64,000 nt of DNA from Synergistaceae bacterium (GTDB lineage Bacteria; Synergistota; Synergistia; Synergistales; Aminobacteriaceae): contig JAFSJJ010000013.1 of assembly GCA_017439345.1 (NCBI GenBank), forward strand, positions 1-64,000. Direction: 5' to 3'. The notes beneath the pieces are model-generated. The model saw nothing but the letters and a program-made list of their open reading frames with translations, searched no databases and had not been told where the DNA came from. Below are positions 11,261-50,285 of this stretch, piece by piece. The position numbers and the translations under genes were made by a program. Numbering within the stretch: the first letter of the stretch is position 1; each line of letters opens with the position of its first letter.

Positions 11261-11279
11261 GTAATATTCTCGTTTAATG

Positions 11280-25895: not shown

Positions 25896-27220
25896 TTCCA
25901 GCGTTCATATTATTTATTGCTGCATTAATTCTTGTGTTATATTTCGGTCTTCCTATGAGCCTCGCAATGTTCGCGGGGTTCATTATATTTCTTGCACTGG
26001 GACTCGTTCGCGGTCATAGACTCAAAGATTTATTAATATACTCATTCAACGGCGCAAAGGATTCATTAATCGTAGTTCGTGTAATGCTCGTGATAGGAAT
26101 CTTAACTGGCCTATGGAGGAGTTCCGGGACATTCGCAATTCTGACAGCGTGGGGACTTCGAGTCATCACTCCTGATTTATTTATTCTCGCAGCTTTTATA
26201 TTATCGTGTATATTATCTTATGCATTGGGAACTTCATTCGGGACAGTAAGCACTCTTGGAATAGCATTAATCACCCTTGCACGGAGCGGAGGAGCTGACC
26301 CCCTAATCACTGCCGGAGCTGTCATGTCAGGGATTCATTTCGGGGACAGGGGTTCGCCGTCGTCATCGTGTCTGCATCTTGTAACTTCTTTAACCGGCAC
26401 AAATCCATATGACAACGTAAAAAATTTCATGAAGTCTGCATTAATCCCGTTAGTAATCTCGTTAATATTTTATGCTGTGCTGTCTTACATGAATCCGTTA
26501 CAGGGCTTTAATGACAACACGCTCAACGAATTAGACTCAGCCTTTAACTTGAGTCCAGTTATAATAATTCCTGCTGTAATAATGCTCGTGCTTCCATTAG
26601 TTCAAGTCAATATTTTCATTGCGTTTCTTGCTAGTATCATTGCTGCGTTCGTGTGTTCGATATTCATTCAGGACATGACTATAACAAATGCTTTATCGTG
26701 CGCTCTTAACGGTTATCATGACTCGGAAGGCATACGAGTCTTATTCAACGGCGGAGGCTTGACTTCAATGATTGAGACATCGTTAGCGTTAATATTTTCA
26801 GGGACGTTCTTGGGAATATTCGAGGGTACGGGAATGCTTGAAGGACTTCATGAGAAAATTTCGGTTCACATAAAGACTTTCGGGGCGTATCCTGTTATAT
26901 TAGTTAATGGTACAATTGCGAACTCGTTATTTTGCAATCAGACAGTCGGAGTATTAATGACCTCGCAGATCATGAAGAAGCCTTATCTTGATAATAATAT
27001 GAGCATGAAGACTCTTGCGTGGGACTTGGCCGACTCCACAGTGATAACTGCGCCGTTAATTCCGTGGTGCATGGCGTGCTATTTTCCGTTGAACGTAATG
27101 AATGAAAGTTTTTACGCGTTGATTTACTCGTGCTACTTGTATTTGATTCCATTGTGCAGACTCATAAAAAAATTCCCCCCAGTCACTGAGACCAGAGGGA
27201 AAAATATAAATTACTCGTGA
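25892..27220 (+). CDS. nhaC: NhaC-family Na+/H+ antiporter
   Basis: 442 residues with about 11-12 membrane helices. The family pattern is seen in L-G-T-S-F-G-T-V-S-T-L-G-I-A-L and H-F-G-D-R-G-S-P-S-S-S, and later N-G-T-I-A-N-S-L-F-C-N-Q-T. NhaC proteins exchange Na+ for H+, some for malate/lactate. Start overlaps the preceding gene (ATGA). Its last codons overlap a terminator hairpin and its stop codon overlaps the serpin stop region on the other strand. Confidence 0.85.
   Translation: MIPAFILFIAALILVLYFGLPMSLAMFAGFIIFLALGLVRGHRLKDLLIYSFNGAKDSLIVVRVMLVIGILTGLWRSSGTFAILTAWGLRVITPDLFILAAFILSCILSYALGTSFGTVSTLGIALITLARSGGADPLITAGAVMSGIHFGDRGSPSSSCLHLVTSLTGTNPYDNVKNFMKSALIPLVISLIFYAVLSYMNPLQGFNDNTLNELDSAFNLSPVIIIPAVIMLVLPLVQVNIFIAFLASIIAAFVCSIFIQDMTITNALSCALNGYHDSEGIRVLFNGGGLTSMIETSLALIFSGTFLGIFEGTGMLEGLHEKISVHIKTFGAYPVILVNGTIANSLFCNQTVGVLMTSQIMKKPYLDNNMSMKTLAWDLADSTVITAPLIPWCMACYFPLNVMNESFYALIYSCYLYLIPLCRLIKKFPPVTETRGKNINYS
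27166..27201 (-). terminator. terminator of the serpin transcript
   Basis: TTCCC (27173-27177) with GGGAA (27197-27201), extended by GTC/GAC inside, makes a hairpin. On the minus strand it ends in seven T. It lies inside the 3' coding end of nhaC, an economical convergent arrangement. Confidence 0.65.
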
Positions 27221-28377
27221 AAAGTTTGTCTTCCCATGAATAAAATAGTGTCTGTATTGCCGTCAACGATAAAATAAATAAACGGTCTGTCAGCGTGAAA
27301 TTCTGCCTTAGGAAGCTCAACAGGCATTGCTGCTGTCGCCCTGACCATCGTTATAGCTGTAGCTGCTGCTGCTTCGGTCTTCTTCTCGTCAACATCAATA
27401 AAAGTCTTGTGAATGATCGAATCAATCTTTAACTTCTCGTCCTGAGTAATTCCTGAGAAGTCTGCAAAGTTACTGAACGCTAATTTGACTCCAAGTTTCT
27501 CAAATAAATTTTTAAGTTCATAGCTCTCTTCAGTCTTGAATTTCGGAAGCCACAAATCAACTTCGTAGCGTGAAAGACTCTGAGTCAATTTCGCGAATCT
27601 TTCCGGAGTCAAGTCTTCGAGTCCCGTCTTGCCTTCAGGAGGGAGAATTACCAGCATTGACATTCTGCCTTCATAAGGGAGCTTGATAATCTTAGTTCCG
27701 TTTGATTCAGCGTAAAGAAATTTGTTATATTGCATCATCATGGGAACTTTGATTTTATTTCCGAACGAGTCAAAATCTTTGTCTTGAGTCTTCTTCTCGT
27801 TGAATTCCCTTGACCACTTAGCATTGAAGTACACAGCGTTAGTCAATATCATTTGGGTATCGGGCAGAACTTTAGCAAGTAAATCATTAATCCTGCCGTT
27901 AGTCTTTCCGCTAACCCAGTCGTTAATAATTTTTCGCGAACCTTCTGAATTATTCTTGAAGTCGAGTTCAGCTGCCGAGCTTTTATAACGTTCAGAGAGA
28001 GTCAACTCATAATAACTCTTGAGAGTCAGACCTTCACGAAGCCACACGCGGTTTGCAGAAGTTATTGCTTTGTCTGATTCAAGCTGTGTTATGAAGTCTC
28101 CTAGAGCCTTGTGAAAGTTTGAGTCAAATTTCATGACGCTGCTAATTTCTTTTGCTGTACTTCCTGCCGAACCTGCATAGGCCATCCCGAACGCTGTTAT
28201 TATGCTGTAGGGTGAGAAGAAAAAGTTATTACCCTTTGAGGAGCTTTCGATTAATTTTGCTGCATTCAATGCGAAAGTATTTATGCTCTCTTGAACTTCA
28301 CCAGCTGCGAAGGACTGAGACGCAAGACTAAGAATTAACACAAGAGAGAACGCAATTTTTACGAGTCTGATTAACAT
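27211..28377 (-). CDS. secreted serpin (serine protease inhibitor)
   Basis: 388 residues, full serpin length, with a signal peptide (cleavage near Ala24). Family blocks: F-S-P-Y-S-I, N-A-V-Y-F-N-A-K-W, and the C-terminal H-A-D-R-P-F-I-Y-F-I. The reactive-loop hinge is E-K-K-T-E-A-A-A-A-T (residues about 331-340), with Thr at P14 and the run of Ala needed for loop insertion, so it should be inhibitory. P15, usually Gly, is Lys. The scissile bond is around V-R-A-T; the P1 residue (Arg or Ala) is uncertain by one position. Bacterial serpins in gut species block host or competitor proteases. Monocistronic with its own terminator. Confidence 0.95.
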   Translation of the reverse strand: MLIRLVKIAFSLVLILSLASQSFAAGEVQESINTFALNAAKLIESSSKGNNFFFSPYSIITAFGMAYAGSAGSTAKEISSVMKFDSNFHKALGDFITQLESDKAITSANRVWLREGLTLKSYYELTLSERYKSSAAELDFKNNSEGSRKIINDWVSGKTNGRINDLLAKVLPDTQMILTNAVYFNAKWSREFNEKKTQDKDFDSFGNKIKVPMMMQYNKFLYAESNGTKIIKLPYEGRMSMLVILPPEGKTGLEDLTPERFAKLTQSLSRYEVDLWLPKFKTEESYELKNLFEKLGVKLAFSNFADFSGITQDEKLKIDSIIHKTFIDVDEKKTEAAAATAITMVRATAAMPVELPKAEFHADRPFIYFIVDGNTDTILFMGRQTFHE

Positions 28378-28434
28378 ACTTAAATTAACACCTCCTGAAC
28401 GTGATTATATAATTTTGCGTGAAAGAATTATGAA

Positions 28435-29925
28435 TTATATAACGCTCTTGAAGGCTGCTTCTGCTCCGTCAGCGCGAATCTTCTTGAGATCCTTCACGAC
28501 TTCTGCTTCAAGTCCTGCAATCTGAGTCAAGTCCTGGCCCCACATGTCTTTATTTGTTAAGACTGCGTGAACGAGCTGCTCCGGTGAGTCGTCTTTATGT
28601 GCAAAGTAAAATTCTAATGCCCAGCGGTCGTCACTGATTGTGTAAGAATTTTTCTCACGTTTGCAGACGAGGCCCTTCTCGTTGAGTTCCTGAATATCGC
28701 TTGAGTAAAACGCTATGTAAGCTGCAAGACTCATAGTTAAGCACGGAGGCAGAGTCTTTTTCTCCTCGACATACTCTAACAAGCTCGGCATGTTACGGGC
28801 GCGCCACTTTGATGTTGAGTTAAGGGAAATGCTCATTAATTCGTGATTGACGAACGGGTTATTGAATCTGTCCTCAACAGCTGCTGCGAATTCGTTCAAA
28901 TCTTTCTTATCAAGAGGCAGAGTAGGAATTATCTCATCATAGAGCATCTTGTTCATGAAGCCTTTAATCGTATCGTTGTGCATACAGTCTCTAACAATAT
29001 CAAAGCCTGCTAAGTAAGCTCCGGGAACGAATCCAGTGTGAGCACCGTTGAGAATTCTTACTTTGCGTTTCTTGTATGGCGTTACATCAGGGACAACGTG
29101 AACGGGGACTCCTGCTTTCTTGAACGGGAGTTTGTCCTCAAGTTCTGCGGGGCCTTCGATAACCCAGACTCCGAAGACTTCTCCGACATCGAGCAAATTA
29201 TCTTCATAGCCGTTGACTTTGTTGAGTGCTTCAAGTTCTTTGGGATCTCTAATTCTGCCGGGAACGATTCGGTCTACCAGAGTCGAGCAGAAAATATTTT
29301 TCTCGTTGACCCATTTTTTGAAAGCGTCATCGAGTCCCCATGAAGCAATATACTTGTTCACGCAGTTTAATAACTCTTTGCCGTTGTTGTCGATTAACTC
29401 ACAGCTCAGGATAACGAGACCGCCTAAACCTGCCTTGAACCTCTCGTATAATACTCGTGTTAATTTTGCAGGGAATGACGACGGGGGGACTTCATCGAAT
29501 TTGCTTGCTTCGTCGTAAACTATTCCTGCTTCAGTCGTGTTGCTTACTACGATTTCAAGATCAGGACTCTTCGCGAGTTCCAAGACTTTTGCCCAGCCTT
29601 CAGGAGCATAGGGATTCAAAGCTCTGCTGCAAGATGATATGACGCGCTTTAAGTCTACTTTGCTGCCCTTCTCGCTGCCCCGTAAATAAAGAGTGTAGAG
29701 TCCTTCCTGCTGATTAATCATGTCCGATAAACCCGAAGCTATGGGCTGAACAAGGACTGCTTTACCGTTGAAGCCTGCCTTCTCGTTTGCAACGTCAAAG
29801 AAGTAATCAACGAATGCGCGTAAGAAATTCCCCTCGCCGAACTGCATAATTTTCTCAGGAGCATTGCGGAGGATAAAACCGTTATAGCCTGACTTGGCCA
29901 AGACATCATAATTTAAGAGTGCCAT
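28435..29925 (-). CDS. uxaB: tagaturonate reductase
   Basis: 496 residues, mannitol dehydrogenase family, matching tagaturonate reductase: N-terminal Q-F-G-E-G-N-F-L-R-A-F-V-D, then S-N-T-T-E-A-G-I, and the C-terminal domain signature K-V-R-I-L-N-G-A-H-T-G. It reduces tagaturonate to altronate with NADH in hexuronate (galacturonate) breakdown. No uxaA, uxaC or kdg gene is nearby. RBS AAAGGAGAAA lies ahead of the ATG. Confidence 0.88.
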   Translation of the reverse strand: MALLNYDVLAKSGYNGFILRNAPEKIMQFGEGNFLRAFVDYFFDVANEKAGFNGKAVLVQPIASGLSDMINQQEGLYTLYLRGSEKGSKVDLKRVISSCSRALNPYAPEGWAKVLELAKSPDLEIVVSNTTEAGIVYDEASKFDEVPPSSFPAKLTRVLYERFKAGLGGLVILSCELIDNNGKELLNCVNKYIASWGLDDAFKKWVNEKNIFCSTLVDRIVPGRIRDPKELEALNKVNGYEDNLLDVGEVFGVWVIEGPAELEDKLPFKKAGVPVHVVPDVTPYKKRKVRILNGAHTGFVPGAYLAGFDIVRDCMHNDTIKGFMNKMLYDEIIPTLPLDKKDLNEFAAAVEDRFNNPFVNHELMSISLNSTSKWRARNMPSLLEYVEEKKTLPPCLTMSLAAYIAFYSSDIQELNEKGLVCKREKNSYTISDDRWALEFYFAHKDDSPEQLVHAVLTNKDMWGQDLTQIAGLEAEVVKDLKKIRADGAEAAFKSVI

Positions 29926-30014
29926 AAAAAAATATTTCTCCTTTCGTGATTCAAAAATTTGGATTAAAATATATTAACATAAATTCTTTATCATGAATTA
30001 CGTAAGATTACTCC

Positions 30015-30046
30015 TTGACAAATCCCCCCCCCAGTTCTAGTACAAT
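30015..30046 (+). promoter_or_regulatory. promoter with C9 tract in the spacer
   Basis: A perfect -35 TTGACA (30015-30020) is separated by 20 bases from TACAAT (30041-30046). The spacer contains nine consecutive C (30024-30032). Twenty bases is too long for good sigma-70 recognition; loss of three C would give 17. Such homopolymer spacers vary by slippage in phase-variable genes of other bacteria. The expressed gene would be the small membrane protein at 30080. Confidence 0.55.
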
Positions 30047-30079
30047 TTGCTTATATATTAATCTCAGGGAGTGGATTTC

Positions 30080-30307
30080 ATGAAGATTATTGTTCCGTTA
30101 TTGATTGTTATTGCAGTATGTGCGATTAACCCTGCTTTTGTAGGAAGGCTGCTTATAGGAGCTATTTTGGGTGCTATTTCCTTTGGTATCCTTTGTCACG
30201 GTGAAAGTGTACAACTTATTATTGCCGGAGCTGTCATTGGTGCGCTTGTATGTGGATTCGGCGGAATTGAGAAAGTGCAAGAAGTGTTATATATCCTAAC
30301 GAACTAA
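30080..30307 (+). CDS. small hydrophobic membrane protein
   Basis: 75 residues from ATG 30080, chosen over the GTG nine bases earlier because AGGGAG sits 8 bases before it. Three hydrophobic stretches (about residues 2-17, 21-38 and 44-62) with Gly-rich turns. No family recognised. It follows the C9 promoter and is followed by a decayed copy of the alsT 3' end. Confidence 0.55.
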   Translation: MKIIVPLLIVIAVCAINPAFVGRLLIGAILGAISFGILCHGESVQLIIAGAVIGALVCGFGGIEKVQEVLYILTN

Positions 30308-30309
30308 TA

Positions 30310-30590
30310 AAAATATCCTTCTGAACTCTAACTCTAAATTAGAATCAGGAGGGTAAAATTTTTAATTACTATAACGCAACCGCAAGAATTCCAAGAATTA
30401 CGGAAATAAAGCCTAATAAAGTCTATCTCTTGTAAGCTGGGATAAGTCCGAGAATTATGGCCCTGAACCAAACATAACTATCTGTCCGAAGAATGCTGCC
30501 ATGCCGATAAATATACTCAGCTTTAGCTGCTAACACCTTATGAGCCTTTGATAATGTCTTGTCGTCCGGTACTCCGAATTTCTCGTCATA
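30310..30590 (-). pseudogene. decayed copy of the alsT 3' end and terminator
   Basis: This stretch aligns base by base with 32685-32981, the 3' end of the intact alanine/glycine symporter plus its terminator, in the same orientation. It includes long near-exact runs around ACCGCAAGAATT and CCAAACATAACT, but has a deletion of about two dozen bases near 30515 and many substitutions. Homology stops abruptly at TCGTCATA (30590 versus 32981). It cannot encode a protein. The two copies bracket the radical SAM genes as direct repeats. Confidence 0.85.
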
Positions 30591-30847
30591 CACCCTGCGG
30601 AATGTACTTTAATTCTTTTGCGCCTGAACTAGTAGACCCGTATGCTGACGGCAACAGGAGAATTGATGCTGCTATGTGCGTTAAGATAATTAATCGCGAA
30701 GTTGTCCATAATCTTTATCTGTTCGCAGTTCGTGTGTAATATACATATTATCAGTGAATTTCGCGTTATTTTTATAGAGAACCGCCGGCTTCATGAAAGT
30801 AATAAACTATAGCAAATTTCGTTATAAAAGAATAAAAAAAGTGAGGC
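30591..30847. other. intergenic stretch without a supported gene
   Basis: Between the symporter remnant and the radical SAM genes. One 63-codon open frame crosses the remnant boundary (30548-30739), so it is not a natural gene start. I see no RNA fold or repeat I can name. A GTGAGG just before 30854 is a weak ribosome site for the next gene. Confidence 0.5.
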
Positions 30848-30853
30848 TTGAAC

Positions 30854-31728
30854 ATGCATTTTTCAGGAGGAATCAACCGCCCGCCGTATGAAAAGACAGA
30901 TGGATATTTACAGACAACAGAAGGGTGTTCTCATAATCACTGCTTGTTCTGTACATATTTCAAGAAGCAGAAATTCAGAAAGTCAACCATAGAAGAGATC
31001 GAGGCTGATATTAAGGAGATACCGCAATATTTCGGCACTCCTAAACGTATATTTTTGCAGGGAGCGGACGGCTTTGCTGCGGATTATGATGTACTGATGA
31101 AGACGGCAGAACTGCTGCATAAATATGTTCCGTCTGTGGAGACAATCAGCGGTTATGCCCGTATCGATAATTTTTACGATAAGACAGAAGAACAGCTCCG
31201 GAATATGGCATCTGTAGGCTTCTCCGATCCATATATTGGCGTTGAATCTGGTGATGACGTTGTCCTGAAACGAATAAATAAAGGTTATACTTCAGCACAG
31301 GCGCGGGAGCAGTTAGAAAAAATCAATGCGTGTCTTTCATCGTCAATTTTCTGAACGGAGCAGGAGGTCATGAATATGGTCTTGCCAACGCTCAGAGGAC
31401 GGCAGAACTTTATAGCGGGCTTAATCCTACGATGGTTAATACTTCTATGATGACGATTGTACCGGGTACTCCGCTGTACAGGGCAGTAGAAAAAGGACTT
31501 TATACGGAATTAACTGAAATGGAAAAACTTGAAGAGATTCATGAGTTTGTACGGTGTCTGACTAATGATACGATTTTCATGAATGAACACGCTTCTAACC
31601 TGTTCCATGTGAAGTGCCGTATCCCTGAGGCAAAAGAAGAGCTGCTGGCCTATATTCGTAAGTTCATGGAAGAAAGCAATGAAAGTAAGCTGCGGCAATA
31701 TCGCGAAATGGTTACACGTGCATTTTAA
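30854..31728 (+). pseudogene. radical SAM protein gene, broken by a small deletion
   Basis: Part 1 (30854-31354) has the radical SAM motif C-S-H-N-H-C-L-F-C (CxxxCxxC-like spacing C-x4-C-x2-C) and G-Y-A-R-I-D and Y-I-G-V-E-S-G. Part 2 (about 31330-31728) continues the fold in another frame (F-I-V-N-F-L-N-G-A-G-G, then N-P-T-M-V, I-V-P-G-T-P-L-Y). Comparison with the intact neighbour suggests about 16 bases, encoding the A-G-I segment, are missing near 31329. Domain conservation on both sides implies recent inactivation. Function of the family is unknown. Confidence 0.75.
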
Positions 31729-31749
31729 TTTTTGATTGGAGGAGTAAAA

Positions 31750-32640
31750 ATGAAATATAACGGTACAATTTACCGTCCGCCGGTAGAAGCTAGTACTTTT
31801 CTGCTGCCGATTACAGAAGGCTGCACTCATAACAGCTGCACTTTCTGCAACATGTATAAGGACGTTCCTTTCAGAATGATTTCACTAAGTGAGGTTGAAG
31901 AATATCTGAAGGAAACAAAGCAAAATTATGAAAGGTACTGTGAGAAAATTCAGCGAGTCTATCTAGTCGGCGCAGATCCATTTGCATTGTCTGCAATAAG
32001 GCTTTTAGAACGAATCGATCTCATAAAAAAGTATCTGCCAAACACAAAAGTCATTACCATGTATGCCCGGACGGATAATATCGCCTCAAAGTCTGATGAC
32101 GATTTGAAAGCCCTGAAGGAAGCAGGCGTTGACGACCTATATATCGGGGTGGAATGCGGTCTAAATGATGTACTTGATAATCTGAACAAAGGATACTCAG
32201 CGAACGAAACTCGGAAACAATGCCTTCGCCTGAATACCGCCGGGATTCAACACTGTGATCTTCTTATGCTTGGGACGGCTGGTAAAGGTCGCGGACTGGA
32301 ATGCGCCAGAGCCTCTGCAGCACTGGAAAACGAGATAAAGCCGCATAAGATTCTCATCAACACTATGTCTGCTTTCGTGGGAACACAACTTGACGAAGAT
32401 ATACGAACAGGTAAATTTCTTCCGGCTTCTGAAAAGGAAAACTTAGAGGAAGAGCGGGAATTTCTTATTAAACTAGATTTGCCGGAGTGTTATTTCTGGG
32501 CATTACATCCTCTTGATTCCGTGAAGATTGAAGGCGTGCTTGGAGATGAGAAACAGCAAATGCTTGATGCCTTAACATGGAGCATTGACCATGTAAAAGA
32601 AGACGCTATTAACCGGACTTCAAGAGTCGGCACACTGTAA
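31750..32640 (+). CDS. radical SAM protein
   Basis: About 296 residues from ATG 31750, which has GGAGGAG upstream. It carries C-T-H-N-S-C-T-F-C near residue 25 (C-x4-C-x2-C), binding the 4Fe-4S cluster for SAM cleavage, plus M-Y-A-R-T-D-N and L-Y-I-G-V-E-C-G. It is a diverged paralogue of the broken gene before it, 21 bases away. No added Fe-S domain or substrate clue. Codon use and the near absence of GAGTC/GACTC differ from the rest of the window, suggesting acquisition. Confidence 0.85.
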   Translation: MKYNGTIYRPPVEASTFLLPITEGCTHNSCTFCNMYKDVPFRMISLSEVEEYLKETKQNYERYCEKIQRVYLVGADPFALSAIRLLERIDLIKKYLPNTKVITMYARTDNIASKSDDDLKALKEAGVDDLYIGVECGLNDVLDNLNKGYSANETRKQCLRLNTAGIQHCDLLMLGTAGKGRGLECARASAALENEIKPHKILINTMSAFVGTQLDEDIRTGKFLPASEKENLEEEREFLIKLDLPECYFWALHPLDSVKIEGVLGDEKQQMLDALTWSIDHVKEDAINRTSRVGTL

Positions 32641-32681
32641 TCTGTGTTCTTAAGGAATGGAGAAAATTTTAGTCAAGGCAT

Positions 32682-32720
32682 AAAAAATACCCTCCTGACT
32701 CTAAATCAGAATCGTGAGGG
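32682..32720 (-). terminator. terminator of alsT
   Basis: CCCTC (32690-32694) pairs with GAGGG (32716-32720), with further pairing inside (TGA-CTC with GA-TCA type contacts). The minus-strand product ends in six T. The same hairpin, decayed, is found at 30310-30355. Confidence 0.65.
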
Positions 32721-32735
32721 CAAAATTTTTAATTA

Positions 32736-34382
32736 CTATAACGCAACCGCAAGAACTCCAAGAATTACGGAAATAAAGCCGAGTAACGTCTGTCTCTTGT
32801 AAGCTGAAATAAGTCCGAGAATTATAGCACCTGAACCAAACATAACTGTCTGTCCAAAGAATGCTGCCATGCCCATAGCTACGCCGATAACTCCGACTAT
32901 GATGTATTCAGCCTTTGCTACTAAGACCTTCTGAGCCTTTGACAATGCCCTGTCGTCAGGTACTCCGAATCTTTCGTCATAGTCATCAACAATGCGCTTT
33001 AACGTTGCCGAGAGAATTAACAGGCCTATCAAGTTGGGAAGTGCCATAAGTCCGTTCAGAGTGTCCGAAATATCCCAAATATTATTCAAGAACTGGTTGC
33101 CTTCCGCACCTACAAACTGAGCACCGGCTGCACCGATTAAGACCATTGCGATCCATAAGATTTTCATTAGGGGCTTGCACCAGACTCCGAATAAGTACGT
33201 TACTGCTGTCTCAGCGTACCAGTACCAGCCGAGTATAGTCGTGAATGCGAATAATAATAATCCTATTGATAATATATATTTTCCGGGTGTCCCGAGTGCG
33301 CTCTCGAATGCCTTGAGTGTAAGCTGTGCTCCGGTCAAGTCGGGTGAACCTGTTAAAGTCCCTGTTACCATGATAACAAGTCCTGTCATAGTGCATATAA
33401 TAATCGTGTCCATGAAGACTTCGAATATTCCATAGAAGCCCTGCTGTACCGGGTGCTCAACGTTTGCCGTAGCGTGAACCATAGGCGCAGAACCCATACC
33501 TGCTTCATTAGAGAATACGCCTCTTGCAATGCCTCTTTGAACAGCTTCTTTTACGCCCCAGCCTGCCAATGCCCCTGGTAAAGTCTCTAAAGGATCGTTG
33601 AATGCAAGATGTAAAGCGTTCGAAATTGCTCCGGGGATCATTTCAGCATTTAAGACAAGGACATATACAGAACCTGCGATGTAAAAAATTGCCATGAAGG
33701 GAACTACTAAAGTCGTAACAGTTGAAAGACTCTTTAAGCCTCCGATTATGACAAGAGCTACGAGAATTGCTATAGCGATTCCTGTATAAAGATGATCGAT
33801 ACCCCAGCCCATTGAGATAGCTTCTGCCGCCGAGTTTGCCTGAGTCGCTGCACCGATTCCAAATGAAGCTAAGAAAGCAAATAAAGCAAAGAGTATAGCT
33901 AATAACTTTCCAAAGAAAGAACCTGCCCTGCCTAAGACTTCACCTGCACCGTTCTCAAGAATATACATAGTGCCTCCGCGCCAGTCTCCGTGAGCGTCTT
34001 TCTGTCTGTAGTGAACTGCTAATGTAACTTCAGCAAATTTTGTACACATGCCGAATATTGCAGAAATTAACATCCAGACCAGAGCACCGGGTCCGCCTAA
34101 GTGAAGAGCTGTAGCAACACCTGCAACGTTACCTGTTCCGACTGTGGCTGCCATTGCCGTAGCCATTGCCGCAAATGATGATATTGATTTATCCTCGTCT
34201 GACTTCTTCCTGAAGCTGAAGACTTCTGATAAAGCCTGAAAGAAATATCTAAACTGAGGAAGACCTAACAAGAGCGTTAAATAAACTCCTGTGCCTACGA
34301 GTAATATTAAAACGGGAGCTCCCCAGACAAAGCTGTTGACAATCCCGTTGTAGTGCATGATTGTGTCCATTATGTTCTGCAT
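32736..34382 (-). CDS. alsT: Na+:alanine/glycine symporter (AGCS family)
   Basis: About 548 residues from ATG 34382, which has AGGAG twelve bases upstream; a GTG at 34394 is too close to that site. AGCS blocks include G-T-G-N-V-A-G-V-A-T-A, G-G-P-G-A-L-V-W-M, and F-S-N-E-A-G-M-G-S-A-P. Family members import alanine or glycine with Na+. A glycine riboswitch and glycine reductase genes follow within 1.2 kb on the other strand, so glycine uptake is attractive here. About 10-11 membrane helices. Confidence 0.93.
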   Translation of the reverse strand: MQNIMDTIMHYNGIVNSFVWGAPVLILLVGTGVYLTLLLGLPQFRYFFQALSEVFSFRKKSDEDKSISSFAAMATAMAATVGTGNVAGVATALHLGGPGALVWMLISAIFGMCTKFAEVTLAVHYRQKDAHGDWRGGTMYILENGAGEVLGRAGSFFGKLLAILFALFAFLASFGIGAATQANSAAEAISMGWGIDHLYTGIAIAILVALVIIGGLKSLSTVTTLVVPFMAIFYIAGSVYVLVLNAEMIPGAISNALHLAFNDPLETLPGALAGWGVKEAVQRGIARGVFSNEAGMGSAPMVHATANVEHPVQQGFYGIFEVFMDTIIICTMTGLVIMVTGTLTGSPDLTGAQLTLKAFESALGTPGKYILSIGLLLFAFTTILGWYWYAETAVTYLFGVWCKPLMKILWIAMVLIGAAGAQFVGAEGNQFLNNIWDISDTLNGLMALPNLIGLLILSATLKRIVDDYDERFGVPDDRALSKAQKVLVAKAEYIIVGVIGVAMGMAAFFGQTVMFGSGAIILGLISAYKRQTLLGFISVILGVLAVAL

Positions 34383-34469
34383 TCTTAATGACACTCTCCT
34401 TCTTTATGATAAATGCAAAAGTGCAAAAATTTTCGCTATATTATACACAGATTTATTTTTCGCGCAAAA

Positions 34470-35504
34470 TTACCAGTAAGGCCGAAGCCATTTATCACTC
34501 CTGCCGAGCCTCTCGAATGCCTTTGTCCCTTTGACCTGCGAATTTCCTCCCAGCCATCCAAGAGCATAATCAACAGCTTTATTGCCGTTATTATCACGTA
34601 TAGTTACGTCAGCTCCTGAGTCAATGAAGAGATTCACTATATCAGCAGTATTAAATTCAGCAGCGTACATTAAGGCAGTTCTCCCGGAGTCATCGCGTGT
34701 ATTAATGCCTGGTTTGTTACTCTTGAAAGCTAATGAAGCCTCGCCGGTGTAAAACTCTTTGAGAATGACTCTTGTTATCTCGATGTTCTTGTTATATTTC
34801 GCAGCGTACATTAATGAATTCATGCCGTCCGAATTTCTGAGAGCAGCATTTGCTCCGGACTCGATAAGCGCACTTACTGTTTCAGGAGTCGTGCTTTCAT
34901 GATTAATAACTTTCATTAAGAGAGTCTCGTTATTATTCTCGTCCCTGTAATTAATATCTGCGCCGGATTTCACAAGCTCATTTACTATTGCAGTCTTCAA
35001 TGTGTCTGCTTTCATGGTGATTAGTGCGTTGTTGAGAATTGCTTGATCAAAATTTTTCTGAAGTATTATGCTCAGAATTTCCGGATCATTTCTGATTAAC
35101 GCGTAGTGAAGCATTTTCTCATTAATATAAGCTCCTGAGTCAACGAGAAACTTTACGGCTTCGGGTGAATTCCCTGCTATTGCGTAAGTTAAAGCTGTGT
35201 CGCCGTCATAGTCTTTAGTATTTATGATTTCTCCTGCCTTGAGAAGTCTTGCTATCTCGTTAATAGACTCTTTGTGAGCTGCTTCCATTAAGACAGTTAT
35301 TGAAGAGGCTCGTCTTCGCTGTAAATCTTCGTCAGCCTGCCTGCCGTTGTCGTCCTTCCACCATTGATAGACTTTGTAAGCGACATCGATTAAAACTTTT
35401 CCGCCTTCAATTACGATAACCGGGTCAACTGAGTATACGGGGCTTGCACTCGACATGATAAAGCATATAACGCATAACAGCAAAAATTTTTTATGACTCT
35501 TCAT
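34470..35504 (-). CDS. exported ankyrin-repeat protein
   Basis: 344 residues with a signal peptide (F-L-L-L-C-V-I-C-F-I-M-S-S-A-S-P, cleavage near residue 25). A short linker is followed by about eight ankyrin repeats from residue 68 (D-G-D-T-A-L-T-Y-A-I, D-S-G-R-T-A-L-M-Y-A-A-E-F-N). Secretion to periplasm or surface is predicted. It is divergent from the glycine riboswitch transcript. Confidence 0.87.
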   Translation of the reverse strand: MKSHKKFLLLCVICFIMSSASPVYSVDPVIVIEGGKVLIDVAYKVYQWWKDDNGRQADEDLQRRRASSITVLMEAAHKESINEIARLLKAGEIINTKDYDGDTALTYAIAGNSPEAVKFLVDSGAYINEKMLHYALIRNDPEILSIILQKNFDQAILNNALITMKADTLKTAIVNELVKSGADINYRDENNNETLLMKVINHESTTPETVSALIESGANAALRNSDGMNSLMYAAKYNKNIEITRVILKEFYTGEASLAFKSNKPGINTRDDSGRTALMYAAEFNTADIVNLFIDSGADVTIRDNNGNKAVDYALGWLGGNSQVKGTKAFERLGRSDKWLRPYW

Positions 35505-35574
35505 AATAATAAATGCCTCCGAACGTTAATAAAAAATCTTTACGGTGATTATAACAAGAATTAGTAATTTTTCG

Positions 35575-35602
35575 TTGACGATAAAATTTATGCAAGTATA
35601 AT
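35575..35602 (+). promoter_or_regulatory. sigma-70 promoter of the glycine reductase cluster
   Basis: TTGACG (35575-35580), 16-base spacer, TATAAT (35597-35602). Transcription would begin near 35609, placing the whole glycine aptamer in the leader. Confidence 0.75.
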
Positions 35603-35629
35603 ATTTCGCATTATAAATACACAAACCCT

Positions 35630-35746
35630 GAATGAAGGATACATGAGAGAGCCGCTAAATCACTCACTCAAGGCCGCCGAAGGGGCAAACACTTGCGAAA
35701 CTCTCAGGCAAAAGAATTGTATCCCGACAGGACTCTGAAACCTGCA
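35630..35746 (+). promoter_or_regulatory. glycine riboswitch (single aptamer)
   Basis: The conserved core is visible: ATGAGAGAGC, then GCCGAAGGGGCAA, CTCTCAGGCAAAAG, and GGACTCTGAAACC at the end. AGGATAC (35636-35642) pairs with GTATCC (35719-35724). Only one aptamer is seen, not the common tandem pair. Located 60 bases before grdX. A switch that turns on with glycine would fit a glycine-degrading operon. Confidence 0.92.
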
Positions 35747-35805
35747 TAATTTAATCACTCATCAACGGCAACAGAGAAATGAAATAATATCAGGAGGGGT
35801 TAAAC

Positions 35806-36222
35806 ATGTTCACGCTCATCACGAATAACAAAGACTTAGCGGGTCACGTCTCATCAGCAGAATTCATTGACTCTTCAGCTCTTGGTGTCTTGATTCACGT
35901 TCGGAGTCTCGTTCACTTGGGCAGCAAAATTTTAACTCATCCTCTTTGCGGTAATCTCAGGCCAAGTCATCAGCCATTTAGATCTATAATCATCGACAGA
36001 CAGACAGGGCTTGTAGATTTGGAATCCCTCACGTTAATTGAAGAAGCTGTTCACGTATATGAATCATGCAAGTTAATTACTCCTCAAGAACTCGATAAAG
36101 CAAGGCGTGCTGATTATGCGTATATTGACTCGCAGTTAATGAGGGAAAGTCTCGAGCAGTACAGGTTAATTAATAAGAATCAAGATGACCTGAATCCTGC
36201 TCCGTTGTTAGTTGTTAATTAA
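35806..36222 (+). CDS. grdX: GrdX protein
   Basis: 138 residues matching GrdX, the small protein that opens many glycine reductase operons; its role is unsettled. Seen: H-P-L-C-G-N-L-R-P, P-F-R-S-I-I, and a C-terminal helix. AGGAGG at 35793 region precedes the ATG. It lies under the glycine riboswitch and 21 bases before grdE. Confidence 0.88.
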   Translation: MFTLITNNKDLAGHVSSAEFIDSSALGVLIHVRSLVHLGSKILTHPLCGNLRPSHQPFRSIIIDRQTGLVDLESLTLIEEAVHVYESCKLITPQELDKARRADYAYIDSQLMRESLEQYRLINKNQDDLNPAPLLVVN

Positions 36223-36243
36223 TTAAAGGAGGTAAATTAATTC

Positions 36244-37536
36244 ATGAAGCTGGAACTTCACAGACTTAACGTGAAAAGTCTCAAGTTCGGAGACAAAACC
36301 GGCTTTGCTGATGGAGTCTTAACCGTCAACAAGGCTGAATTACTCGCTTTGATTTCAGAAGATGAATTACTCGGCAAAAATCTCGATGTTGATTTAGCCA
36401 TGCCGGGTGAAAAGACTCGAATTATGCCCGTCAAAGATGTCATTGAGCCAAGATACAAGCTCGAAGGCAAAGGACAAGTATTTCCCGGAATGATCAGCGA
36501 TGTTGAAACAGTAGGAGAAGGCAAGACCCTTGTTTTATCGGGAGCAGCTGTCCTTACAGCAGGGAAACTCGTACGCTTCCAGGAAGGCATTATCGATATG
36601 TCAGGACCGGGCGCAGAGTACACACCGTATTCAAAGACTTGCAATGTAGCTCTTGTGTTAGAACCTGCCGACCCTAACATGGACAAACATGATTATGAGA
36701 AGGCGTGCAGACTCGCAGGACTCAAAACTGCTGCATATCTTGCCAAGTCATGCGCTGATGCTAAACCGGATGAGATTCAGACCTACGAGATGCCCAATAT
36801 TCGCGAGGCAATGAATTCACTTCCAGGACTTCCCAAAGTAGGCTATTTATACATGCTTCAGACTCAGGGATTATTACACGACACGTATTTATATGGAGTC
36901 GACGTTAAGAAAATTCTGCCTACTATTATTTCACCGCTTGAAGTCATGGACGGCGCGATTGTTTCAGGCAACTGCGTATCAGCCTGCGACAAGAACAGCA
37001 CTTACTCTCACCAGAATAACCCGGTTATAGCAGACATGTTGAAGCGTCACGGTAAAGATTTCAACTTTGCAGCAGTAATCGTTACTAATGAGAATGTTAC
37101 CCTTGCAGATAAGAGACGCAGCTCAAGTTATGCAACGAAATTAGCAGGAATGCTCGGACTTGACGGACTCGTTATCACTGAAGAGGGATTCGGCAATCCT
37201 GACGCAGATTTAATTATGAACTGCTGGAAGGCTGAGAGATTAGGGATCAAGACAGCGTTACTTACAGACGAGTACGCAGGCCAGGACGGTGCAAGCCAGT
37301 CATTAGCGGACTCATGTCCCGAAGGCAATGCTTGTGTTACGGCAGGCAATGCTAATGAAGTTATCGTGCTTCCTCCTATGGATAAAGTTATCGGCTACGC
37401 TGAAGAGGCTAATATCATCGCAGGAGGCTGGAACGGTTCACTTGCTGAGGACGGAACTATCACAGTAGAGCTTCAGGCAATCACCGGAGCAACGAGCGAG
37501 CTTGGCTATACGAAACTCGGAGCTTACACGCTGTAA
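36244..37536 (+). CDS. grdE: glycine/sarcosine/betaine reductase component B, GrdE-type
   Basis: 430 residues. In this family the proprotein is cut at an Asn-Cys bond, and the Cys becomes a pyruvoyl group that binds the substrate amine. The site is visible as S-G-N-C-V-S-A-C-D-K-N with Cys at residue 244. Together with GrdB it forms the substrate-specific component B of glycine reductase, which feeds selenoprotein A. Sarcosine (GrdG) and betaine (GrdI) paralogues look similar, but the glycine riboswitch and neighbouring GrdB favour glycine. AAAGGAGG precedes the ATG. Confidence 0.93.
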   Translation: MKLELHRLNVKSLKFGDKTGFADGVLTVNKAELLALISEDELLGKNLDVDLAMPGEKTRIMPVKDVIEPRYKLEGKGQVFPGMISDVETVGEGKTLVLSGAAVLTAGKLVRFQEGIIDMSGPGAEYTPYSKTCNVALVLEPADPNMDKHDYEKACRLAGLKTAAYLAKSCADAKPDEIQTYEMPNIREAMNSLPGLPKVGYLYMLQTQGLLHDTYLYGVDVKKILPTIISPLEVMDGAIVSGNCVSACDKNSTYSHQNNPVIADMLKRHGKDFNFAAVIVTNENVTLADKRRSSSYATKLAGMLGLDGLVITEEGFGNPDADLIMNCWKAERLGIKTALLTDEYAGQDGASQSLADSCPEGNACVTAGNANEVIVLPPMDKVIGYAEEANIIAGGWNGSLAEDGTITVELQAITGATSELGYTKLGAYTL

Positions 37537-37563
37537 TAATTAATAATAAGAGAGGTGAGAAAA

Positions 37564-38868
37564 ATGGCGTTTAAAGTTGTGCATTATATTAACCAGTTTT
37601 ATGCAGGTATAGGCGGAGAAGAGAAAGCTGACTACATGCCCGAAGTCCGTGAAGCTGTAGTAGGTCCCGGAATGGCGTTAAAAGCTGCTCTCAAGGGTGA
37701 AGCCGAAATCGTAGCAACGATAATTTGCGGAGACTCATATTTTGCCTCGAACATGGACGAAGCTACGAAGACTATACTTGACATGATTCGCAAGTATCAG
37801 CCTGATGCATTTATCGCAGGGCCTGCCTTCAATGCCGGACGTTACGGAACTGCCTGCGGAGCTATGTGCGCTGCTGTAGCTAAAGAGTTCAATATCCCGG
37901 TAATAAGCGGAATGTATCCCGAAAATCCCGGCGTCGAAATGTATAAAAAATTTGCCTGGATAATTCAGACTCCGGACAGTGCTGCAGGAATGAGAAAAGC
38001 TGTTCCCGCAATGGCTGCTCTTGCATTAAAGCTCTTGAAGGGTGAGGCAGTCGGCAAACCTGAAGCAGAAGGCTATATCGAGCGCGGTATTCGTAAAAAT
38101 ATGTTCTATGAGAAGCTCGCTGCTGAAAGATGCGTTGACATGTTCATAAAGAAGCTCAAGGGTGAAGAGTTCGAGACAGAGTACAAAATGCCCGTGTTCG
38201 ACAGAGTAGACCCTCAGCCCGCAGTCAAAGATTTAGCCCATGCAACTATAGCTCTTGTTACATCAGGCGGAATTTGTCCGAAGGGGAATCCTGACCACAT
38301 CGAGGCATCAAGCGCAAGTAAATTCGGCGAGTATGACATCACAGGAGTCCAGGACTTGACCAGCGAGACTCATTGCACAGCTCACGGAGGCTATGACGCT
38401 ACATATGCTGATCAGGACGCAGACAGGGTATTGCCTGTTGACGTTATGAGAGATTTAGAACGCGAGGGAGTCATCGGCAAACTTCATAACAAGTTCTATG
38501 CAACAGTAGGAAACGGAACGAGCGTCGCCAATGCAAAGAAGTTCGGTGCTGAAATCGTAAAGAGACTCGTAGCTGACGGAGTCACGGCAGTAATATTAAC
38601 TTCAACCTGAGGCACTTGTACTCGTTGCGGTGCAACGATGGTTAAGGAAATTGAGCGCATGTTACCAGTTGTTCATATGTGTACGATAGTCCCGATCTCT
38701 CAGACTGTAGGAGCAAATAGAATCGTCCCGACGATAGCTATTCCTCATCCTTTGGGAGATCCAACGAAGACTCCAGAAGAAGAAAAAGTTATCAGGCGCA
38801 GACTCGTTGAGAAGGCACTCCGGGCACTTCAGACGGAGATAACAGAGCAGACGGTCTTCACGGATTAA
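37564..38868 (+). CDS. grdB: selenoprotein GrdB, read through UGA 38608-38610
   Basis: 434 residues when the TGA at 38608 is read as selenocysteine (residue 349). The sequence round it is T-S-T-Sec-G-T-C-T-R-C-G-A-T, the GrdB active site. Frame and family similarity continue after it (V-H-M-C-T-I-V-P-I-S, I-P-H-P-L-G-D-P), and a stem-loop lies just downstream. Length is normal for GrdB. I start at ATG 37564, which has GAGAGGTGA upstream. Sec forms the catalytic selenol that attacks the pyruvoyl-bound glycine. tRNA-Sec and yedE/yedF lie 4-6 kb away. grdA, grdC and grdD are absent here. Confidence 0.95.
38608..38637 (+). promoter_or_regulatory. selenocysteine codon and bacterial SECIS hairpin
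   Basis: UGA at 38608-38610 is followed after 12 bases by a perfect stem CGTTGC/GCAACG (38623-38628 with 38632-38637) closed by GGT. A short stem with a GU-containing loop at this distance is the form recognised by bacterial SelB. Confidence 0.85.
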
Positions 38869-44184: not shown

Positions 44185-44282
44185 TGGCGGAAGTGTGTGG
44201 GGATCGAACCCACCAGAGACAGCTTAGACCGCCCCTCACCGGGTTTGAAGCCCGGGCCCGTCACCAGACAAATCTCACTTCC
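44185..44282 (-). tRNA. selC: tRNA-Sec (anticodon TCA)
   Basis: 98 bases on the minus strand including encoded CCA. The anticodon loop CTTCAAA gives TCA, in a stem CCGGG/CCCGG. A long variable arm, extended acceptor-T stack (GGAAGTG with CACTTCC) and G discriminator are typical. Reads UGA as selenocysteine, needed for grdB. selA, selB and selD are not in the window. Confidence 0.95.
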
Positions 44283-49211: not shown

Positions 49212-50285
49212 TTATTCAGTGCCTGATATTCTGTCCGAGCCCTTCTTGATATTCAATTTCACGAGGTCTTTTTCTTTCAGGTCATCCCACTTGAAATTTA
49301 ACACGAGTAAGAACAACGCTGAGAAAGGATCCATGCGCCAGTTTGCTTTTTTCTTGAACGTATCATGAATAGTACGCAGCTGCCTGACTCCCTTATTATC
49401 AGATTCCATGTCAGCAAGAAATTTCTTGACTTCCGAAAGAGTATCAATGCCCGCAACTCGTAATATATTGCATAGATAATTAAAGCTCTCACGCAAATAA
49501 TCAGCACTCGGTGTGAACTCAGGAAAGCCTGCACTTACTGCCGCAGCGTTCCATTTACCCAAAATAGAAGGATCATCACGAAATAAGTTATAAAGCTCCT
49601 CATCAGTAAATAATTTCTCCGCATCAAGTGAAGCACTCTTAGCCTTTCCGATTTGATTCGGGGGAACTAATAAAGCCTCGTCCTTAATTTCGTTGCGCAA
49701 CGACAAGAAGCCCTGATCAGCCTTCTCAAGCAATGCAGCCAGCAATACAAGTTCACGGGTTAATTTCTTCTCTGAGAGACTTCCGACAGTCTGATTAACT
49801 TTCGGGAATATCGTCGCCCATGCCTCTTGAAGCATAGTACGTAATTCAAGCCTGAAGCTCAAATTTCTATACTTCATCCATTCACGGAGACCAGCTCTTA
49901 TATGTGAAAGCGATAATATATACACTACAGCAGGATAGCCGAATCTATATGGATCCTCAAGACCGCTTGAAGGCACCGAACGCGACGAGTCTATAGCAAA
50001 CTCGCTCTTGATAACTTCCTCAATTTTCAGGACATCTTCAGGGAATCTCAGCAAGACTCTAACTGTTACGAGGTCGACTCCTGATAATTCGTTCTCTTCA
50101 AGTGATGAGAGCAGCGTCAATAATTCCGCAGGAGGTTTCGCCCAGCCCTCGATAGCATAAAACTCTACGCCCTCAAGCTCGACTAAGTCCTGAATCAAAT
50201 TCCTGATTCGAGTCGCGTATTCCTCATAGAGTGAGAGGCTCTCTACATATTTTATTCCTATTTCATCGATTCTGCGTTTGTCCAT
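49212..50285 (-). CDS. RelA/SpoT-like nucleotidyltransferase-fold protein
   Basis: About 357 residues from ATG 50285 (a TTG nine bases earlier is possible; no strong ribosome site is seen). Residues 45-185 resemble a (p)ppGpp synthetase domain: V-E-F-Y-A-I-E-G-W-A-K-P, L-V-T-V-R-V-L-L-R-F, F-G-Y-P-A-V-V-Y-I-L-S-L, and L-E-L-R-T-M-L-Q-E-A-W-A. The usual R-x-K-x-x-x-S and D-x-x-G-x-R catalytic signatures are degraded, so activity is doubtful. The C-terminal half is a helical region without a known domain. Confidence 0.65.
   Translation of the reverse strand: MDKRRIDEIGIKYVESLSLYEEYATRIRNLIQDLVELEGVEFYAIEGWAKPPAELLTLLSSLEENELSGVDLVTVRVLLRFPEDVLKIEEVIKSEFAIDSSRSVPSSGLEDPYRFGYPAVVYILSLSHIRAGLREWMKYRNLSFRLELRTMLQEAWATIFPKVNQTVGSLSEKKLTRELVLLAALLEKADQGFLSLRNEIKDEALLVPPNQIGKAKSASLDAEKLFTDEELYNLFRDDPSILGKWNAAAVSAGFPEFTPSADYLRESFNYLCNILRVAGIDTLSEVKKFLADMESDNKGVRQLRTIHDTFKKKANWRMDPFSALFLLVLNFKWDDLKEKDLVKLNIKKGSDRISGTE

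Follow-up and report, generated by a model that had tools for sequence, protein, structure and literature searches.

Genomic islands integrate site-specifically at the 3′ ends of genes, for example at the ends of tRNA genes, and the locus described here shares part of that layout. It lies in the first 64,000 nucleotides (forward strand) of contig JAFSJJ010000013.1 of a Synergistaceae bacterium (GenBank assembly GCA_017439345.1), a stretch that we call the window, and consists of a pair of radical S-adenosylmethionine (SAM) genes, rSAM1 and rSAM2, set between two direct copies of the 3′ end of alsT. As in an island, the insert sits at the 3′ end of a gene and has a copy of that end on either side; unlike in an island, there is no integrase, the repeat of ~290 bases is decaying, the target is a protein gene, and a second copy of the pair in a congeneric genome (G017) is without such a repeat. 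In all likelihood, the two-gene unit, which belongs to a gut clade spread across phyla, entered after the split from the species represented by genome G018 and was inserted at the alsT 3′ end.

By analogy, the nearest described processes would be homology-facilitated illegitimate recombination and transformation-induced duplication. The former (PMC3240628) joins incoming DNA by one homologous and one non-homologous end and needs no transposase; here, in distinction to that account, the resident homologous stretch has been doubled so that it flanks the insert, and no deletion is seen. In the single genome of this species, alsT homology lies at both insert ends. The latter, merodiploid formation by transformation, is described (PMC3784515) as uptake of DNA that yields direct duplications of 100–900 kb bordered by repeats; what is alike is a duplication around incoming DNA, which here amounts to ~290 bases of a gene end.

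The first-pass annotation of the window, made by a model from the letters alone, had reported a 281-base, same-direction repeat of the alsT 3′ end with its terminator, and local alignment of 30309–30590 with 32683–32981 bears this out (gaps of 7, 1, 12, and 11 bases). A search of the whole 2.54 Mb genome returned just these two copies, which are 82% identical including gaps (E 9.5e-80), their gapless blocks being 90, 94, and 84% identical. The left copy, hereafter the relic, is damaged by a nonsense codon and a 1-base deletion; it has also lost 23 bases and, in the terminator region, gained 7. A tree built from alsT 3′ ends places it as sister to the window's own alsT (95/90), within the split from G018 (98/97), and over 219 aligned coding columns it is 88% identical to the window's alsT, 81% to that of G018, and 66% to that of G017. 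With G018 as the outgroup, the changes at codon positions 1/2/3 number 3/5/7 in the relic and 1/0/7 in the live copy; the first distribution fits no selection and the second a working gene, so that the relic was non-functional from about its origin.

Judged by the alignments and the tree, the left copy duplicates this species' own alsT end without being functional; it is neither an older nor a foreign alsT, and the duplication dates from after the split from G018, the nearest sampled species. The coding part of the relic has decayed neutrally, with the terminator hairpin persisting, while the live gene stays constrained. The annotation had spoken of an old copy that has decayed: the decay is confirmed by the lesions and the codon-position counts, but the relic is a duplicate of the resident gene and not an older one. 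A xenolog from another species was considered and rejected on the same tree.

The annotation had also suggested looking in relatives for an empty site with a single alsT end, and such a site is present in three congeneric genomes (G018, G016, and G003), in which the tagaturonate reductase gene directly adjoins the alsT 3′ end; the distance from that gene to the alsT terminator ranges from tens of bases to ~140. G018 is the nearest sampled relative by alsT (95% amino acid identity). Measured against the empty sites, the unshared stretch of the window runs from ~30024 to 32682 and comprises, from left to right, a small open reading frame (ORF) with a promoter-like site, the relic, a spacer, the two radical SAM genes, and a last 42 bases. 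The acquired segment was thus rightly placed at the end of alsT, but it is longer than first described and includes a small orphan gene left of the relic.

Descent of the radical SAM genes outside the Synergistota, which the annotation had proposed to check by a search of other phyla, is clear. Their clade occurs in 2/188 Synergistota genomes, those of the window and of G017, and its other members carry the labels of other phyla. In the public genome collection, 18 loci hold relatives at 65–86% identity, the next best match being at 37%; these are metagenome-assembled genomes (MAGs) labelled Lachnospiraceae, Selenomonadaceae/Quinella, Ruminococcus, Desulfovibrio, Anaerolineaceae, Coriobacteriales, and Victivallales, most of which have rumen, abomasum, or other ruminant names in their titles (RUG and RGIG series, prefixes that we take to denote ruminant genome series). 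The two genes occur together, in either order, in all relatives except on truncated contigs, and a third paralogue lies upstream of them in Lachnospiraceae, Anaerolineaceae, and Ruminococcus. The G+C content of the pair tracks that of its host over a range of 34–63%, so many of the transfers must be old. In other carriers, the neighbours include a TetR or ArsR regulator, nitroreductase, FMN reductase, and NADH:flavin oxidoreductase, which suggests a conditional redox or detoxification role. Compared with the other carriers, the Desulfovibrio loci (L077, L080, and L081) have an rSAM2 near the Lachnospiraceae type and an rSAM1 on a branch common to Victivallales and one Selenomonadaceae; the two genes were thus apparently exchanged separately.

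The second carrier within the genus, G017, holds the sister of the window's rSAM2 (100/99 in the tree). Synonymous divergence (dS) between the two genomes is 0.44 for rSAM2 and 0.51 for rSAM1, as against 1.26 for alsT, and the pair was therefore not inherited vertically from their common ancestor; a ratio of non-synonymous to synonymous divergence (dN/dS) of ~0.08 indicates that selection acted on both genes through most of that time. The G017 pair, flanked by a carboxymuconolactone-decarboxylase-like gene on one side and by a MerR gene on the other, sits directly behind a terminator between convergent genes, and this landing site is empty in at least four congeners (L157, L158, L161, and L163) as well as in the window's own genome (L160). 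The unit that the two carriers have in common begins ~20 bases ahead of rSAM1 and ends with the rSAM2 stop codon; past it no residual homology was found between their flanks, and G017 has neither a repeat flanking the pair nor a piece of alsT. As G017 has its sister copy at another locus, the pair appears to have reached the genus as one lineage and to have landed at least twice. In G017, rSAM1 is 153 bases short and an in-frame stop interrupts rSAM2; in the window, rSAM1 is not intact either, being split by a 7-base deletion relative to its relatives at ~31330 (frames 30848–31354 and 31330–31728). The pair is evidently eroding, with rSAM1 broken in both genomes by different lesions and rSAM2 intact in the window only.

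The empty sites and the foreign clade support the view, already put forward in the annotation, of an acquired segment at the alsT end, and the following course of events would account for it. Before the insertion, the small ORF would already have faced alsT and shared its bidirectional terminator. Incoming DNA with the radical SAM pair would then have joined into the alsT 3′ region and duplicated ~280–300 bases; a staggered break, a template switch, or a single crossover with a molecule that bore an alsT end could each have produced this. The right copy would have kept alsT and its terminator whole and the left copy would have left a terminator for the facing small ORF, so that, owing to the duplication, both facing genes kept a terminator and alsT stayed whole. 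The pair may once have given a conditional benefit, which, as rSAM1 is broken, would since have been lost.

Several points weigh against this account. There is neither integrase nor transposase among the ORFs of 26000–38000 and neither a tRNA end nor a short target duplication was seen at the insert; the insert is flanked by the 281-base alsT repeat only, and like the G017 copy it qualifies neither as an integrase-type island nor as a transposon. The small ORF is also missing from the empty sites, which calls for two additions at the least, or for a single addition plus a rearrangement. The species is represented by one genome in the comparison, the donor labels are those of MAGs and may include mis-binned contigs, and the pair (42.8% G+C) matches the window (42.5%), so that the missing GAGTC/GACTC sites (see below) are the single compositional sign of recent entry.

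Possible but doubtful is the integration, by a single crossover, of a circular molecule on which an alsT 3′ end and the radical SAM pair were already neighbours. Homology, insert, and homology in direct orientation is the layout expected of such an event, but the relic derives from this species' own alsT and not from that of a donor, the G017 copy is without an alsT piece, and a search for a mobile carrier gave no relative on viral contigs and only distant ones on plasmids and phages, all of them below 40% identity. We think it unlikely that a tandem alsT duplication came first and that radical SAM DNA then took the place of the left copy's 5′ part, which had been the annotation's own alternative. 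This would yield the order relic, insert, alsT, and a tandem second alsT does occur in a congener (G013, C81 597–2237 and 2308–3720); the sequence between 30591 and 32682, however, contains no remnant of the alsT 5′ part, no trace of a full second alsT was found, an extra deletion is required, and the relic gives no sign of a time under selection beyond that of the live copy, so this idea, though possible, went unsupported. In the G013 tandem (L016, 597–3720) it is the second copy that is without its C-terminal part. That the relic's alsT end arrived with the insert from another Synergistota species is quite improbable: the sister pair in G017 makes transfer of the pair itself between Synergistota likely, but the grouping and identities given above tie the relic to the window's alsT rather than to that of G018 or G017. 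An assembly artefact, for which the 46 contigs of the genome and the chance that the single 7-base deletion is an error might speak, can hardly explain repeat copies that differ by ~18% with indels, on a contig spanning 131,825 bases, or the different lesions in the same genes of the independent genome G017.

Insertion at the alsT end after the split from G018 thus being preferred, we regard the case as ordinary horizontal transfer with an unusual and informative scar. For a phylum that has been little studied, it offers a clean and datable instance of gene uptake, with empty sites at both landing places, a scar whose age can be read from a gene-end copy in neutral decay, and independent erosion of the pair in two species. 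The more general point is the spread across phyla, in ruminant guts, of an uncharacterised radical SAM pair common to bacteria labelled as six or more phyla, whose neighbours (TetR/ArsR regulators and flavin-dependent reductases) suggest a testable conditional function in detoxification or redox chemistry. We give little credence to a further reading, in which the pair is an enzyme-less mobile unit, reaching from the rSAM1 ribosome-binding site to the rSAM2 stop, that crosses phyla in ruminant guts and lands time and again in terminators between facing genes because some joining mechanism works there. The features of the locus are collected in Table 1.

Table 1. Features at and around the radical SAM insert, in window coordinates unless a genome is named.
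Feature	Position	Strand	Evidence
Tagaturonate reductase gene, left neighbour	28435..29925	−	NCBIfam NF002969 E 8e-174; synteny
Native intergenic DNA, aligns with the G016 empty site to ~30023; left edge of unshared stretch	29926..30023	.	Synteny
Promoter-like site of small ORF: TTGACA, 20-base spacer with nine C, TACAAT	30015..30046	+	Sequence, pattern search
Orphan small ORF, 75 amino acids, hydrophobic	30080..30307	+	No relative in 60 other genomes
alsT relic: decayed 3′ end and terminator	30309..30590	−	Alignments, tree, codon-position counts
Terminator-like hairpin in relic, 7 bases past the small ORF stop	30314..30355	+	−16.4 kcal/mol, z −4.4
Orphan spacer 5′ of rSAM1	30591..30832	+	No match in 60 other genomes, including G017
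rSAM1, broken radical SAM gene	30854..31728	+	Pfam PF04055 E 2.5e-14 on first part
rSAM2, intact radical SAM gene, 296 amino acids, CX4CX2C (C25, C30, C33)	31750..32640	+	Pfam PF04055 E 3.7e-16
42 bases from rSAM2 stop to alsT terminator; right edge of unshared stretch	32641..32682	.	Synteny
alsT terminator, hairpin ~32690–32720	32683..32735	−	Folding
alsT, sodium:alanine symporter, intact; 3′ end is the live repeat copy	32736..34394	−	NCBIfam TIGR00835 E 4.5e-131
Poly-C promoter-like sites	window 30015–30046; G000 C2:111423, C20:4004, C33:5933, C36:43307; L168–L197		Pattern search

The predicted products are assigned to the radical SAM superfamily by their PF04055 match (54.2 bits for the first part of rSAM1 and 60.2 bits for rSAM2, against a gathering cut-off of 29.5) and by three cysteines, C25, C30, and C33, that are invariant in 35 sequences. 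Neither gene matched an NCBIfam family at its cut-off. The cysteines that bind the 4Fe-4S cluster of radical SAM enzymes are usually spaced CX3CX2C; the partial TIM barrel of the predicted fold (predicted local distance difference test score, pLDDT, 91) is shared with the superfamily, whereas the CX4CX2C spacing and the lack of an auxiliary domain set these proteins apart. The solved folds nearest to the model are MgmA, AprD4, Elp3, MiaB/MtaB, and HydE, with 12–18% identity to any solved structure. The rSAM2 frame has an alternative opening at TTG 31732. A literature search found nothing on this radical SAM gene pair.

Further candidates were tried for the insert and its edges and rejected. 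Neither six-frame comparison nor Pfam found a trace of a TetR, ArsR, or third radical SAM gene in the stretch 30591–30853; an inverted 7-base match, CCTTGAC/GTCAAGG, near both edges of the unshared stretch occurs at about chance level, one copy being the TTGAC of the promoter-like site; and insertion at a tRNA does not apply, the window's only tRNAs lying at 11279 and 44185.

The small ORF also has no relative in the phage, plasmid, and viral contig collections, and its promoter-like site sits at the left edge of the unshared stretch. The hairpin in the relic folds more stably than that of the live alsT copy (−12.0 kcal/mol), but its T run begins a few bases late and a consensus terminator scan does not list it. 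That a hairpin was kept so close behind the small ORF stop is consistent with the small ORF and alsT having faced each other across a common terminator before the insertion took place. By its position, the alsT terminator would also serve rSAM2 on the other strand.

The annotation had contrasted two GAGTC/GACTC sites in 1860 bases of radical SAM genes with 21 sites in 1020 bases of csaB. Two sites are indeed found in 30024–32682 (at 31955 and 32624), a density of 0.75 per kb against 6.72 per kb in the rest of the window, but the depleted stretch begins left of the radical SAM genes rather than at them: the longest site-free gap of the window runs from 29698 to 31955 (2257 bases, the next being 1081). 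A dense stretch of 1020 bases does exist, with 22 sites near 50201. Relative to base composition, no 5-mer of the window is more strongly over-represented than this motif (414 sites against 104 expected). Around alsT (loci L003–L022), its count per 4.6 kb is 0–1 in G020, G009, and G024 and 16–18 in G000, G017, G018, and G006, swings between congeners that might reflect restriction-modification or some other sequence bias.

C-tracts of at least 8 occur in promoter-like contexts across the genus, including upstream of the small ORF described here, and as a lead they may be worth more than the insertion case. At least seven C between TTGAC and a TANNNT box are found in 22/43 congeneric genomes, against one match for a reversed-pattern control, and in 19/31 poly-C sites the spacing between −35 and −10 boxes totals 20 despite varying tract length. 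The genes 3′ of these sites often encode small glycine-rich or secreted membrane proteins, proteins that look DUF697-like by eye, and a GTPase. The sites are candidates, on pattern searches, for phase-variable promoters or for a separate promoter/operator class. In G000 there are 193 overlapping matches to CCCCCCCC, which we estimate to represent ~60 tracts of 8–14 C. Of 31 tracts read (L198–L247), 19 have TTAC[GT] within the next 30 bases, as compared with 2/31 for a control stretch lying farther downstream; even where no TTGAC box is present, the tracts therefore share a conserved context.

Elsewhere in the window, the tRNA at 44185–44282 is a tRNA-Sec gene (anticodon tca), from which it follows that the organism probably makes selenoproteins.

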